DNA from: Gemmataceae bacterium
GTDB lineage: Bacteria; Planctomycetota; Planctomycetia; Gemmatales; Gemmataceae
Length of the DNA stretch: 64,000 nucleotides
Reading direction: 5' to 3'
NCBI GenBank assembly: GCA_901538445.1
Contig: LR594584.1
Coordinates: 1,148,655-1,212,654, forward strand
A model generated the notes under the pieces. The model did not search any database. It was not told the DNA's origin and saw nothing but the letters and a program-made list of their open reading frames with translations. Both the position numbers and the translations under genes were made by a program. Shown one piece after another: positions 4,699 through 54,264 of the stretch (position 1 is the first letter of the stretch; every line of letters begins with the position of its first letter).

Positions 4699-4796
4699 GG
4701 TAGGCGACTCGCTCCGCGAGTCGCGCCCCGGTGTCGTACATGTGACCGGGCGGCCCGGAGCGCCGTTGGTGTCACTCGCGGAGCGAGTGACCTACC
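4699..4796. repeat. Inverted repeat with GACTCGCTCCGCGAGTC half-sites
   Basis: The ends GGTAGG and CCTACC pair, and each arm contains its own small palindrome (GACTCGCTCCGCGAGTC on the left, GTCACTCGCGGAGCGAGTGAC on the right). The element starts 2 bases after a stop codon and lies between convergent genes. Confidence 0.75.
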
Positions 4797-8140: not shown

Positions 8141-8170
8141 GAGCGGCCCACCCGTACGGGTGGGCCGCTC
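8141..8170. terminator. 30-bp perfect palindrome between convergent genes
   Basis: GAGCGGCCCACCCGT is followed directly by its reverse complement. The gap between the convergent stops at 8114 and 8193 holds nothing else. It is a likely bidirectional transcription end, though without a clear T-run. Confidence 0.6.
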
Positions 8171-12588: not shown

Positions 12589-12662
12589 GTTCGGGTCCGA
12601 GCCCGAGCGCCGAGCGAGGGTCAACGTTGACCCTCGCTCGGCGCTCGGGCTCGGACCCGAAC
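12589..12662. repeat. 74-bp perfect palindrome between convergent genes
   Basis: The two 37-base halves are exact reverse complements with no loop, centred between 12625 and 12626. The core GGTCCGAGCCCGAGCGCCGA recurs at 32333-32397, so this is a dispersed element rather than a simple local terminator. It fills the gap between the lipoprotein gene and rtcB. Confidence 0.9.
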
Positions 12663-14137: not shown

Positions 14138-14204
14138 CAGTGTTCAGTGGGCAGTGGACAGTTGAATGCAGTGTGCCGGACTGGCCACTGCCCACTGAAC
14201 ACTG
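14138..14204. repeat. Inverted repeat with 20-bp perfect arms between archease and rtcB
   Basis: Arms at 14138-14157 and 14185-14204 (CAGTGTTCAGTGGGCAGTGG and its complement) flank a 27-base spacer. Unlike most such elements in the window it lies between two genes of the same operon, so it could attenuate or process the archease-rtcB transcript. Confidence 0.85.
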
Positions 14205-17023: not shown

Positions 17024-17092
17024 GGCGAGCGGGGGACGTGAGTCCCCCGGTTGGATCCGAACGCACCGGGGGACTCACGTCCCCCGCTCGCC
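17024..17092. repeat. Inverted repeat with 28-bp arms (GGGGGACGTGAGTCCCCC family)
   Basis: Arms at 17024-17051 and 17065-17092 are exact complements around a 13-base spacer. A near-identical copy occurs at 29599-29665 inside the fhcB coding sequence. This copy lies between fabH and the large cytochrome-like gene, which run in the same direction. Confidence 0.9.
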
Positions 17093-20347: not shown

Positions 20348-20412
20348 GGGCGAACCCCGAGCGCAAGCGAGGGGGTGAGGCGCACCCCCTCGCTTGCGCT
20401 CGGGGTTCGCCC
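20348..20412. repeat. Inverted repeat, 30-bp arms (GAGCGCAAGCGAGGGGGTG family)
   Basis: Arms 20348-20377 and 20383-20412 are exact complements around 5 bases. Close relatives lie at 21199-21262 and 26445-26523. This copy lies between two minus-strand genes, 40 bases downstream of the LRR gene stop. Confidence 0.9.
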
Positions 20413-21198: not shown

Positions 21199-21262
21199 GG
21201 CGAACCCTGAGCGCCAGCGAGGGGGTGCGCGTCACCCCCCTCGCTGGCGCTCAGGGTTCGCC
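21199..21262. repeat. Inverted repeat, ~29-bp arms (GAGCGCCAGCGAGGGGGTG family)
   Basis: GGCGAACCCTGAGCGCCAGC... at 21199 pairs with its complement ending at 21262, with one extra C in the right arm. It belongs to the family with the 20348 and 26445 copies and lies between divergent genes, upstream of both. Confidence 0.88.
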
Positions 21263-24569: not shown

Positions 24570-24624
24570 GTAGGGCCGGCTGTGCCGGCCGCGCACCACG
24601 CGCGGCCGGCACAGCCGGCCCTAC
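24570..24624. repeat. Inverted repeat with 24-bp perfect arms between convergent genes
   Basis: GTAGGGCCGGCTGTGCCGGC at 24570 pairs with its complement ending at 24624; the loop is 7 bases (24594-24600). It fills the gap between the permease and the zinc-ribbon membrane protein. Confidence 0.88.
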
Positions 24625-26220: not shown

Positions 26221-26383
26221 GGCGGGAACCTCGAAGAGGGTGCAGGCAGCCCGTCCGGGCGCGACGGCAGGATGGTACTTCTTAGCTCACGTTTGGCGGA
26301 TTGGGCAATGCCGGTTGGTGGTCCTGGCGAGCGACGCGGCCCGGTGCTTTCGCGTCCCCGTGTTGAACTGCCTGGCGAGCCGA

Positions 26384-26594
26384 GTGTGTCAACACACGGG
26401 TGAAGCTCAACAGGGCGACGCAGAGATTGAATCCGGGTCAGCGGCACCCCCCTCGCTGGCGCTCAGGCTTCGCCACGAAGTTGCACCGCTTGTTGGCGAA
26501 CCCTGAGCGCCAGCGAGGGGGTGGCTTCACAACCCAAACCACCCACTGTGAAACACCGCGTTGCCCTGTGAAGCTCAACCCGTGTGTTGACACA
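26384..26594. repeat. Outer inverted repeat ending in GTGTGTCAACACACGGG
   Basis: Left arm 26384-26415 and right arm about 26563-26594 share GTGTGTCAACACACGGGT and its complement, plus an ACAGGGC/GCCCTGT end. Between these blocks the 8-base GAAGCTCA stands in the same orientation in both arms, so it is not inverted with the rest. The element encloses a copy of the GAGCGCCAGCGAGGGGGTG family, as if one element had inserted into another. Confidence 0.75.
26445..26523. repeat. Inner inverted repeat, third copy of the GAGCGCCAGCGAGGGGGTG family
   Basis: Arms 26445-26474 and 26495-26523 are complementary with one mismatch and one extra C, around a 20-base spacer. The arms match those at 21199-21262, but the spacer is different and longer. 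Confidence 0.85.
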
Positions 26595-26634
26595 CACGAC
26601 TCGCCACGGCACAACGGCGGCTCGACGACGCGTG

Positions 26635-28867: not shown

Positions 28868-30250
28868 ATGAGGGCAGTTACACTGCTGCTCGCCGAGAGA
28901 ACCGCCATTCCCGCGACGACTTCCAATGTGGCCTGCACCGTGTGCGGGTGCGTGTGCGACGACCTCCGCGTGACCACCGACGGCGGCCGCGTCGTCAGCG
29001 CCGAGGGCGCGTGCGCGCTCGCCGAGCCGTGGTTCCGGTCGCAGGACGCCGACCACCCGCCCGCGGCCGAGATCGCCGGCACGCCCGTCGAACCCGCCGC
29101 CGCCTACGACCGCGCCGCGGAGTTGCTGCGGGCCGCGAAGTACCCGCTCATCTTCGGGCTGTCGCGCAGCACCACCGAGGGGCAGCGGGCCGCCGCGGCG
29201 CTGGCCGACACGCTCGGCGCGACCATCGACACGACCGCCAGCACCGGCCACGCGCCGTCGATCATGGCGCTCCAGCAGGTGGGCGAATCGACCTGCACGC
29301 TCGGCGAGATCCGGAACCGCGCCGACCTCGTCATCTACTGGGGCAGCGACCCGGTCGCCACGCACCCGCGGCACCTGGAGCGGTACGCCCTGGAGCCCCG
29401 CGGCCGGTGGACGCCGAACGGCCGCAAAGACCGCTTCCTCGTCGTCGTGGACGAAACCGAGACCGAAACCGCCAAGCAGGCCGACCTGTTCATCCGCATC
29501 GCCCCCGGCAAGCACTGGGAGGCGCTGTGGGAGTTGCGGATGCTCGTGCGCCGGGGGGCCGGTGAGGACGGCGGAGGCCGAGAGGTACGGACAGACGAGG
29601 CGAGCGGGGGACGTAAGTCCCCCGGTGCGTTCGACCCACCGGGGGACTTACGTCCCCCGCTCGCCCAAGCACTCAAAGAGCTGGCCCGCCGCATGACCAC
29701 CTGCCGGTGCGGGGTCGTGTTCTTCGGCACCGGTCTGACCCGCGACCGGCTCGCGCACCGCACCATCGAGGCGCTGCTCCAACTGGTCACCGACCTGAAC
29801 GACCGCACGCGGTTCTACGTGCGGCGGATGCGGCGGTACGGCGACGTGGCCGGGGCCGACTCGGTGCTCGCGTGGCAGACCGGCTACCCGTTCGGGGTGA
29901 ACCTGAGCCGCGGGTACCCGCGGTACAACCCCGGCGAGTTCACCGGCCCCGAGATGCTGGCCCGCGGCGAGCCCGACCTGTGCCTGTTCGTCGGCAGCGA
30001 GACGGCGGCCGACTTCCCACCCGCGGCGCTAACCCACCTGCGGCGCGTGCCTGTAATCACCCTCGACTCGCCGGGTATTTCCCCCGTGGTGCCCGCGGCG
30101 GTCAAGTTCACGACCGCGGTGTACGGGGTCCACCGCATCGGCACCGCGTACCGGATGGACGAGGTGCCGGTCCCGCTGCGGGTGCTGCTGCCGACGGACT
30201 ACCCCAGCGACGCCGAGGTGCTGAACGAGCTGTTGGCGCGTGTGGTGTGA
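28868..30250 (+). CDS. fhcB: Formylmethanofuran dehydrogenase subunit B homologue (FhcB-like)
   Basis: Homologue of FwdB/FmdB, part of the formyltransferase/hydrolase complex in the tetrahydromethanopterin-linked C1 pathway of methylotrophs and planctomycetes. The 460-residue protein begins with a Cys cluster (VACTVCGCVCDDLRV), continues with PLIFGLSRSTTEGQRAAA, TASTGHAPSIMALQQVGE and VIYWGSDPVATHPRHLERY, and ends with a molybdopterin-fold-like domain (YRMDEVPVPLR). Residues about 244-266 are encoded by an inverted-repeat element seen elsewhere in non-coding DNA. The start is uncertain: GTG at 28928 would begin at VACTV. Subunits A, C and D are not in the window. Confidence 0.85.
   Translation: MRAVTLLLAERTAIPATTSNVACTVCGCVCDDLRVTTDGGRVVSAEGACALAEPWFRSQDADHPPAAEIAGTPVEPAAAYDRAAELLRAAKYPLIFGLSRSTTEGQRAAAALADTLGATIDTTASTGHAPSIMALQQVGESTCTLGEIRNRADLVIYWGSDPVATHPRHLERYALEPRGRWTPNGRKDRFLVVVDETETETAKQADLFIRIAPGKHWEALWELRMLVRRGAGEDGGGREVRTDEASGGRKSPGAFDPPGDLRPPLAQALKELARRMTTCRCGVVFFGTGLTRDRLAHRTIEALLQLVTDLNDRTRFYVRRMRRYGDVAGADSVLAWQTGYPFGVNLSRGYPRYNPGEFTGPEMLARGEPDLCLFVGSETAADFPPAALTHLRRVPVITLDSPGISPVVPAAVKFTTAVYGVHRIGTAYRMDEVPVPLRVLLPTDYPSDAEVLNELLARVV
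29599..29665. repeat. Inverted repeat inside fhcB (GGGGGACGTAAGTCCCCC family)
   Basis: Arms 29599-29626 and 29638-29665 are exact 28-base complements around 11 bases. They match the intergenic element at 17024-17092 except for one symmetrical base change (GTGAGT to GTAAGT). Here the element is read through in frame and encodes a Gly/Pro/Arg-rich stretch. Confidence 0.92.
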
Positions 30251-32182: not shown

Positions 32183-32210
32183 TACCGAATCGCGTGGATC
32201 AGTTGCTTTT

Positions 32211-32276
32211 GGTGGGGCAGGCATTCGTGCCGGCCTCCAACCGCGGTTGGAGGCCGGCACGAATGCCTGCCCCACC
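32211..32276. repeat. 66-bp perfect palindrome without loop
   Basis: The 33-base halves 32211-32243 and 32244-32276 are exact complements (GGTGGGGCAGGCATTCGTGC and onward). Outside them, ATACCGAATCGCGTGGAT (about 32182-32200) and ATCCATGCGATCCGGTAT (about 32289-32306) form an imperfect outer pair, so the whole unit is about 125 bases. Confidence 0.9.
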
Positions 32277-32332
32277 AGATCGAAACGAATCCATGCGATC
32301 CGGTATGACGTCCGTTCCGATTTCGTCGTGCC

Positions 32333-32397
32333 GGTCCGAGCCCGAGCGCCGAGCGAGGGGCCAGCGTGAACCCTCGCTCGGCGCTCGGGCCCGGACC
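32333..32397. repeat. Inverted repeat, second copy of the GGTCCGAGCCCGAGCGCC family
   Basis: Arms 32333-32359 and 32371-32397 pair with one mismatch. The arms match those of the 74-bp palindrome at 12589-12662, but here a short spacer separates them. Confidence 0.88.
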
Positions 32398-35088: not shown

Positions 35089-35120
35089 TCGTACCACGCT
35101 CGGCTGATTCGTGGGTGTTC

Positions 35121-35190
35121 TGTAGCCGGCCTCTGTGAGGCCGGGCCTCGGGTAGTCCCCCAGGCACCGGCCTCACAGAGGCCGGCTACA
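35121..35190. repeat. Inverted repeat, second copy of the TGTAGCCGGCCTC family
   Basis: A 70-base element whose ends TGTAGCCGGCCTCTGTGAGG and complement pair. It is nearly the reverse complement of the 30274-30342 copy, including the asymmetrical middle, so the two copies are in opposite orientations. Confidence 0.88.
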
Positions 35191-35213
35191 GGAATCCAGC
35201 AACCGGACCGGGT

Positions 35214-44984: not shown

Positions 44985-45087
44985 TGAATTCAAAGCACGA
45001 AGGACGAAATCCGAAAGGAAGGATCCGGCGCGCGGGGTCTTGTTCGGATTGTGTGTTTCGTGCTTCGTGCTTCGAATTTCGTGCTTC
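44985..45087. repeat. Imperfect inverted repeat with AAGCACGAAGGACGAAAT-like arms
   Basis: GAATTCAAAGCACGAAGGAC near 44985 and TTCGTGCTTCGTGCTTCGAA near 45060 are related as imperfect complements. It lies in the 126-base gap between the ATPase and permease genes and is less GC-rich than its flanks. Confidence 0.5.
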
Positions 45088-54202: not shown

Positions 54203-54264
54203 GGCGAGCCGTGCCAGTCATGGCACGGGTTTCCATAACCAACCCGTGCCATGACTGGCTCGCC
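54203..54264. repeat. Inverted repeat with GCCAGTCATGGCACGGGTT arms
   Basis: Left arm 54203-54231 and right arm 54241-54264 pair around TTCCATAACC-like bases, with a 5-base bulge in the left arm. It begins 4 bases after a stop codon and lies between two plus-strand genes, so it is a plausible transcription end. Confidence 0.8.

Follow-up and report, generated by a model that had tools for sequence, protein, structure and literature searches.

Dispersed palindromes of a Gemmataceae genome as probable REPINs with matching RAYT-like genes in related genomes

The window, by which we mean the whole stretch of 64,000 nt analysed here, spans positions 1148655-1212654 of contig C3 in the genome of a Gemmataceae bacterium (G000; 7.86 Mb in four contigs, 95% complete) and has a G+C content of 70.7%. 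It contains 14 REPIN-like elements of nine types, together with two palindromes with tandem or repeat-like arms (at 14138 and 44987) and two others (at 8141 and 35042). The types, with family letters assigned in the present analysis, are A (12589, 32333), B (20348, 21199, 26448), C (17024, 29599), D (30274, 35120), G (32210) and the single elements 661, 4699, 24570 and 54213, named by position. The principal features, none assigned to a strand, are as follows.

661-720: REPIN-like dimer, GTAG tag, arm GTAGCGGCGACCGGAGGGAGCGC; singleton in the sample; at most 3/23 mismatches to both flanks of the RAYT L179 (G009)
4699-4796: REPIN, GTAG tag, with unlike halves (GTAGGCGACTCGC.. and GTAGGTCACTCGC..); 22/22 nt on both sides of the RAYT L173 (G016)
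12589-12662: REPIN of family A, perfect loopless palindrome of 74 nt, CGAG tag; 55 A arms in this genome; cognate RAYT L332 (G009)
14138-14204: palindrome of another type, arms made of heptamer repeats (CAGTGGG); the syntenic gap of G009 has a REPIN-like palindrome
17024-17092: REPIN of family C, CGAG tag; cognate RAYT L276 (Lacipirellula limnantheis), with the 29599 form of the arm at 24/24 nt on both sides
20348-20412: REPIN of family B, CGAA tag; 208 B arms in this genome; cognate RAYT L333 (G005)
21199-21262: REPIN of family B, by arm alignment and the genome-wide B arm count
24570-24624: REPIN-like dimer, GTAG tag (GTAGGGCCGGCTGTGCCGGCC); sole relative in the sample at L035 9376; no RAYT match in 160 Y1 loci
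26372-26606: composite palindrome of ~230 nt, outer arms GGCGAGCC..CACACGGGT, inner family B dimer at 26448-26521 with its tags inside; four further copies in this genome
29599-29665: REPIN of family C, in frame within gene 28928-30250; arm identical at 24/24 nt at L276
30274-30342: REPIN of family D, GTAG tag; cognate RAYT L170 (G011)
32210-32277: REPIN of family G, GTGG tag, loopless; cognate RAYT L175 (G014), 1-2/25 mismatches, both sides
32333-32397: REPIN of family A, by arm alignment
35120-35191: REPIN of family D; 114 D arms in this genome
44987-45078: palindrome of another type, repeat-like arms (CGAAGCACGAAGGACG); singleton by arm alignment
54213-54259: REPIN-like dimer of the CGAG type (GAGCCGTGCC..GGCACGGGT); one-sided match only, 5/25 mismatches, at the RAYT L176

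Inverted repeats had been reported here in a preliminary description, whose coordinates and sequences are correct and whose four named repeat families recur both within the window and across the sampled genome. It had listed two loopless perfect palindromes; the one at 12589-12662 is indeed 74 nt long, but the second (32210-32277) measures 68 nt and not 66. Most of the palindromes do lie between genes, as it had held, but copy 29599 stands in frame inside the open gene 28928-30250, which has a collinear ortholog in the relative G009, and the family member that it had placed at 26445, while belonging to family B, is the middle part of the composite palindrome at 26372-26606, whose four other copies in the genome are 88-90% identical over ~225 nt. 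Palindromes scoring at least 17 number 121 in 864 kb of G000 DNA, against none in 240 kb of order-3 Markov sequence.

Each REPIN arm consists of a short tag and its own small hairpin, and the full unit is two such REPs in inverted orientation within one larger palindrome, separated in the window by 0-52 nt; the arm of family C, for example, reads GG-CGAG-CGGGGGAC-GTGA-GTCCCCCG-GT. A script identified such a hairpin in 114 of the 229 sampled palindromes, the tetranucleotides most often ahead of it being CGAG (28), GTAG (15), GGCG (8), GTGG (7) and GACC (6), but it missed stems with G-A mismatches and classed 93 of the 229 as 'other'. Stems with such mismatches occur in families A, B and H, whose tags, read by eye, are CGAG, CGAA and CGAG, respectively. 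The tags are outermost in most copies and lie inside in some copies of family B (L069 17991, L074 9898).

The sample comprised the window and 80 stretches of 20 kb, amounting to 1.664 Mb of the 7.86 Mb, and palindromes scoring at least 16 were retained. Arm similarity places 174 of the 229 in 26 families of at least two members, which include tandem-armed and other palindrome types alongside REPINs, and leaves 55 singletons. Of the nine window types only 661 is a singleton in the sample, the other eight having further members there; copy 30274 fell under the score cut of this census and was assigned to family D separately. A previous clustering through shared 11-mers merged 92 of 130 palindromes and was superseded by the arm alignment. 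Counting was extended to the whole genome for three families (A, B and D) and for one 18-mer of A, the others being counted in the sample only; it gave 208 arms of B and 55 of A with at most two mismatches and 114 of D with at most one. The families are thus dispersed, and because of these arm counts the sequences are not unique in the genome, as the preliminary description had supposed they would be if they were ordinary local terminators.

Evidence that such elements arrive by insertion comes from a protein-coding gene and from syntenic gaps. Gene 28928-30250, the product of which has no Pfam match and which we take to resemble formylmethanofuran dehydrogenase subunit B, has copy 29599 of family C in frame within a linker near 29588-29670. 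We examined this linker in 12 of 20 loci (orthologs L334-L353), 11 of them anchored. Where G000 has REPIN C, G014 has a REPIN resembling those of its own family known from L109, G009 has a tandem-armed palindrome, G015 a weaker palindrome (score 20), and G008 and G016 palindromes scoring 11; the linkers of G002 and G013 are 114-120 nt long and contain no palindrome, and those of G005 (15 nt), G007 (12 nt) and G018 (39 nt; possibly a paralog, at 53% identity) are compact. Separately, we note that several homologs of this product (e.g. G012:C70, G006:C53, G001:C1) contain one in-frame TGA, which may reflect selenocysteine forms of the enzyme. Ten gaps between genes are syntenic with G009, one G009 gene start having been shifted by hand by 450 nt, and in seven of them G000 has a palindrome. 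Two of those seven gaps have a strong palindrome in G009 as well, in both cases of a different type, and two more have a weak one there (scores 11 and 14); none of the ten comparisons shows the same type in both genomes. As the matched coding DNA of the relatives is ~75% identical, exact insertion joints are not readable, but the occupancy of one linker by different palindromes in different species and of syntenic gaps by different palindromes or none supports, at the level of sequence comparison, a history of probable insertion.

We have looked for RAYTs with matching ends, the check that the preliminary description had proposed in raising the possibility of REP/MITE-like mobile elements, and the outcome supports that possibility. 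Cognate RAYT-like genes with arms on both sides at 0-4 mismatches are present for seven of the nine window types, all in other species (A with L332, B with L333, C with L276, D with L170, G with L175, 4699 with L173 and 661 with L179), and for two further families in G000 itself. Type 24570 has no cognate in 160 Y1 loci, and among the same loci type 54213 has the weak, one-sided match at L176. A PF01797 search of G000 yields four Y1 genes, one RAYT (L034/L184) and three that are IS200-like by appearance; L032, the one of these three that was scanned, passes the IS200 model. A profile built from six RAYTs of relatives detected one more RAYT-like gene, the class-3-like L315, and the reading of a single RAYT in this genome, which had come from PF01797 alone, was dropped. 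Since L315 was missed by Pfam, RAYTs distant from both profiles could still escape detection. L315 is bracketed by REPINs of the genome's own family E (CGAGCCACGGGG..CCCCGTGG, a CGAG family), with a 27-nt inverted match between the flanks, and L184 is bracketed by the genome's GGGACCGCGGGCG family.

Y1 matches occur in 16 of the 19 genus genomes, G000 included, and 15 of the 19 Y1 loci inspected (18 of them from relatives) have words of at least 19 nt common to both flanks. L165 has 22 nt in common and yet is IS200-like in appearance, and among the same 19 loci L167 (at a contig end), L168 and L180 have no flank-shared words. A RAYT-profile scan of named genomes yielded 330 relatives, of which the best 80, mostly from Planctomycetota, were retained; 71 of these loci had adequate flanks. 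A word of at least 14 nt is common to both flanks in 59 of the 71, compared with 38 of 1000 random positions, all from G000, and no such word is found in the other 12. A hairpin is repeated in both flanks at 41 of the 71 loci; its foot is exactly NGAG in 15 of the 41, and [GA]AG lies no more than 1 nt from the foot, on one strand or the other, in 33 of the 41, with eight exceptions, as against 210 of 1137 control hairpins.

We read by eye, and without a tree, the motifs given for class 3 TnpAY1 (HuH as NHVH, W[TA], and a Y-motif with Q at +5): L174 and L177 fit (NHVH, WT, Y....Q), L166 has NHVH with Q at both +4 and +5, L172, L169 and L176 have Q at +4, combined with NHIH in L169 and L176, and L315 has NHAH with Q at +4. 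Six RAYT-like proteins, a set outside which L315, L332 and L333 lie, were scanned with REP_Tyr_transpos (NCBIfam NF047646; cut-off 80 bits); L184 of G000 (94.3), L170 (107.2) and L175 (87.9) pass, and L166 (42.6), L174 (29.9) and L179 (53.7) score under the cut-off.

Neither profile search (PF01797 or the six-RAYT profile) finds a cognate RAYT for families A, B, C or D in G000. Family B has 208 arms in G000 and 28 in G005, which has the cognate RAYT; a single arm occurs in each of two further genomes, and the remaining 15 have none. For family A the counts are 149 arms in G009, where its cognate is, 97 in G005 and 55 in G000, with none in 16 genomes. Family D is present in 16 of the 19 genomes, with 114 arms in G000, 92 in G011 (with the cognate RAYT) and 54 in G008, a genome of one contig in which both profile searches find no Y1 gene. 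REPINs are known from E. coli genomes that lack a RAYT, being less common there than in RAYT-bearing genomes, according to the accessible text of one study (PMC8049555). That family B is larger without its cognate gene than with it is the less expected result, and it is a single comparison with a genome 95% complete. It is conceivable, although we think it doubtful, that REPIN populations of this genus outlive or outgrow their transposases, the arms re-templating each other so that symmetry is mended without a transposase.

Taken together, these observations make it very probable that the window palindromes are mostly REPINs, non-autonomous elements copied by RAYTs encoded elsewhere in the genome or formerly present in the lineage. 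Each is a pair of inverted REP units, and in each unit a small hairpin follows a tag that reads CGAG or CGAA in several families and in other families GTAG or GTGG. The RAYTs, HuH transposases with one catalytic tyrosine, would copy them, those of the bracketing arrangements being the likely agents and several having probably been lost from this lineage. By the route described in the RAYT literature, the tagged hairpins would be cleaved by the enzyme while the DNA is single-stranded, and the dimer would be inserted elsewhere; the insertions that survive would mostly be those immediately after a stop codon or within an expendable protein linker. The symmetry of the arms would mostly be a remnant of recent copying from symmetric masters, after which single-arm mutations would accumulate. 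Counting against this reading are the 55 singletons among the 229 palindromes, the lack of cognates in G000 for A, B, C and D, the absent and weak matches of types 24570 and 54213, and the 12 of 71 RAYT loci whose flanks have no word of at least 14 nt in common.

The position of the palindromes nonetheless invites a different explanation, that they are terminators or stabilisers of 3' ends under structural selection, resembling one another through constraint or local origin and not through mobility. With genes called by our own caller (1297 genes, coding fraction 0.803), 208 of the 229 palindromes of all types lie in gaps, 13 inside called genes and eight at the edges of stretches. Their density is 1.310 per kb of convergent gap (n=71), 0.708 in tandem gaps (n=116) and 0.247 in divergent gaps (n=21), and 99 of the 116 copies in tandem gaps are closer to the upstream stop codon, at a median of 17 nt behind it. 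This strong 3' bias is what selection on 3' ends would give, but selection against insertion into promoters, or both together, would give it too. The hairpin followed by a U-run of an intrinsic terminator is rare: two of the 229 palindromes have six or more T in the adjoining 10 nt of either flank, a small excess over six of 3000 random positions and in keeping with the preliminary description, which had noted that most lack a U-run. Long identical arms at dozens of sites, identical arms adjoining RAYT genes, a copy in frame within a gene, and the lack of the same type at any orthologous gap of G009 all argue against it as well, and the idea of plain local terminators finds no support in the dispersed families, the near-absence of U-runs and the syntenic G009 gaps that hold another palindrome or none. 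We regard this explanation as highly improbable; many dispersed, mainly intergenic copies are what is seen of REPINs, and these may have a secondary use as 3' ends.

If the palindromes are REPINs, they need not be orphans, since the transposases remaining in G000 (the class-3-like L315, L184 as the other RAYT, or the three genes of IS200-like appearance) could move all families in trans. The presence of two RAYT-like and three IS200-like genes is in line with this, as is the finding that CGAG is the commonest tag (28 of 114 recognised hairpins) and that a CGAG family stands on both sides of L315, but in relatives RAYTs with other arm sequences flank families of their own, and family D maintains its 54 arms in the one-contig G008, which has no Y1 gene by either profile search; we consider such general mobilisation quite unlikely. 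A further possibility concerns the perfection of the arms, for which the preliminary description had offered recent spread, ongoing correction and selection on structure. Arms differ less within copies than between copies in all nine families compared (128 copies, the family A set including loci retrieved with an A-type word), as would be expected if arm-to-arm correction, by template switching or gene conversion, and not recent spread, held them identical. Among deviations from the consensus in these copies, however, 172 affect one arm and 110 are symmetric, and only 30 of the 110 are confined to one sampled copy, most being common to several copies as expected from sub-families. In G008, G010, G002 and G013, inspection by eye gave 17 dimers of family D in which an arm deviates; three have the same change in both arms and 14 do not, and two of the three carry one identical change, in G008 and G010, which could be one inherited event. 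Correction as the main cause is thus rather unlikely, and recent copying from REPIN masters suffices for most copies; symmetric variants exceed the expectation from independent hits, a hint that allows for sub-families or for some arm-to-arm correction.

Not all palindromes of the genome have this anatomy. Tandem repeats of 6-8 nt make up the arms in 22 of the 229, where a GAAGAC..GTCTTC-like core is frequent; examples are 14138-14204 and 44987-45078 in the window, L111 6484 (G002) and L117 4954 (G013). By anatomy these are not REPs; a literature search with subscription journals mostly outside its coverage found nothing on such strings. A third type of palindrome proved to be the variable stem of an RNA-like element of ~220 nt, which occurs outside the window at the following places.

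G000, L125-L131 and L136: C1:301969; C2:394317, 743413, 2085294 and 2251458; C3:662567, 2318789 and 3921618
G002, L112: 6058-6142 and 7301-7385

A conserved scaffold (median flank identity 0.87) surrounds a stem of fixed length, the arms of which match at 27-28 of 28 positions within a copy and have a median identity of 0.39 between copies. One copy folds with a z of -7.81, the flanks look promoter- and terminator-like by eye, and Rfam gave no family at the gathering score for five loci, with weak matches below it. A 17-nt word of the element has 6-30 matches in 17 of the 19 genus genomes and 1-2 in seven of 40 others. G012 (4.9 Mb, 98% complete) and G017 (4.8 Mb, 97%) have no match to PF01797, to the RAYT profile, to families A, B or D or to the RNA word.

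REPINs, RAYTs and the link between them are established, as the consulted portions of earlier reports make clear (PMC3116915; PMC2817692; PMC8266576). Like the REPINs of Pseudomonas fluorescens as outlined by Bertels and Rainey (2011, PMC3116915), the elements described here are two inverted REPs with a variable spacer, of high copy number, mostly extragenic and linked to RAYTs; they differ in that their spacers are mostly short, full complementarity between the arms is common, and the two RAYT-like genes found in the genome stand beside many coexisting families. The flanking of a RAYT by inverted REPs and the species-specificity of the REPs recall the REPtrons of Nunvar et al. (2010, PMC2817692), in whose summary the presence of a rayt correlates with the abundance of its REPs. 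This rule fits in part for A (149 arms in G009) and D (92 in G011), but not for B, which is larger without a cognate (208) than with one in G005 (28).

Among described tags, the GTAG of one REP superfamily (Di Nocera et al. 2013, PMC3733652) is shared by D, 4699, 24570 and 661 and, as GTGG, by G, whereas A, B and C carry CGAG or CGAA. In the account available to us those GTAG/CGTC repeats likewise form dimers, lie between unidirectional and convergent genes and have intragenic copies, but the CGAG families fit neither tag, and the CGTC repeats are without a transposase while the CGAG and CGAA families have RAYT-like genes adjoining them in other genomes. Closer still is class 3 of TnpAY1, which the excerpted text of Quentin et al. 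(2018, PMC6006769) places in Planctomycetes and others, with high-copy hairpins and the foot CnGA. The shared features are Y1 transposases of Planctomycetes, several flanking hairpins, a non-GTAG foot and dispersed copies; the foot here is CGAG or CGAA, and the [GA]AG/NGAG foot of the flank hairpins is likewise not identical with CnGA. Families of this kind from the present genus do not appear in that excerpt, nor did these families turn up in literature on REPINs or RAYTs in Gemmata or planctomycetes, a search mostly outside subscription journals. The CGAG-tagged dimers are probably best called new members of the kind described as class 3 with hairpins (Quentin et al. 2018, PMC6006769, in the part consulted), a class assignment made from motifs read by eye.

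On this reading the majority of this genome's long palindromes are mobile dimers for which transposase partners have been identified. RAYT-REP pairs with the CGAG tag are now available for testing a scarcely described branch of transposases, and the linker, whose palindrome differs from one species to the next, has naturally preserved a record of insertion. With REPIN-rich genomes that have no findable cognate standing beside relatives that have one, the persistence of REPIN populations can be tested by comparing closer strains.
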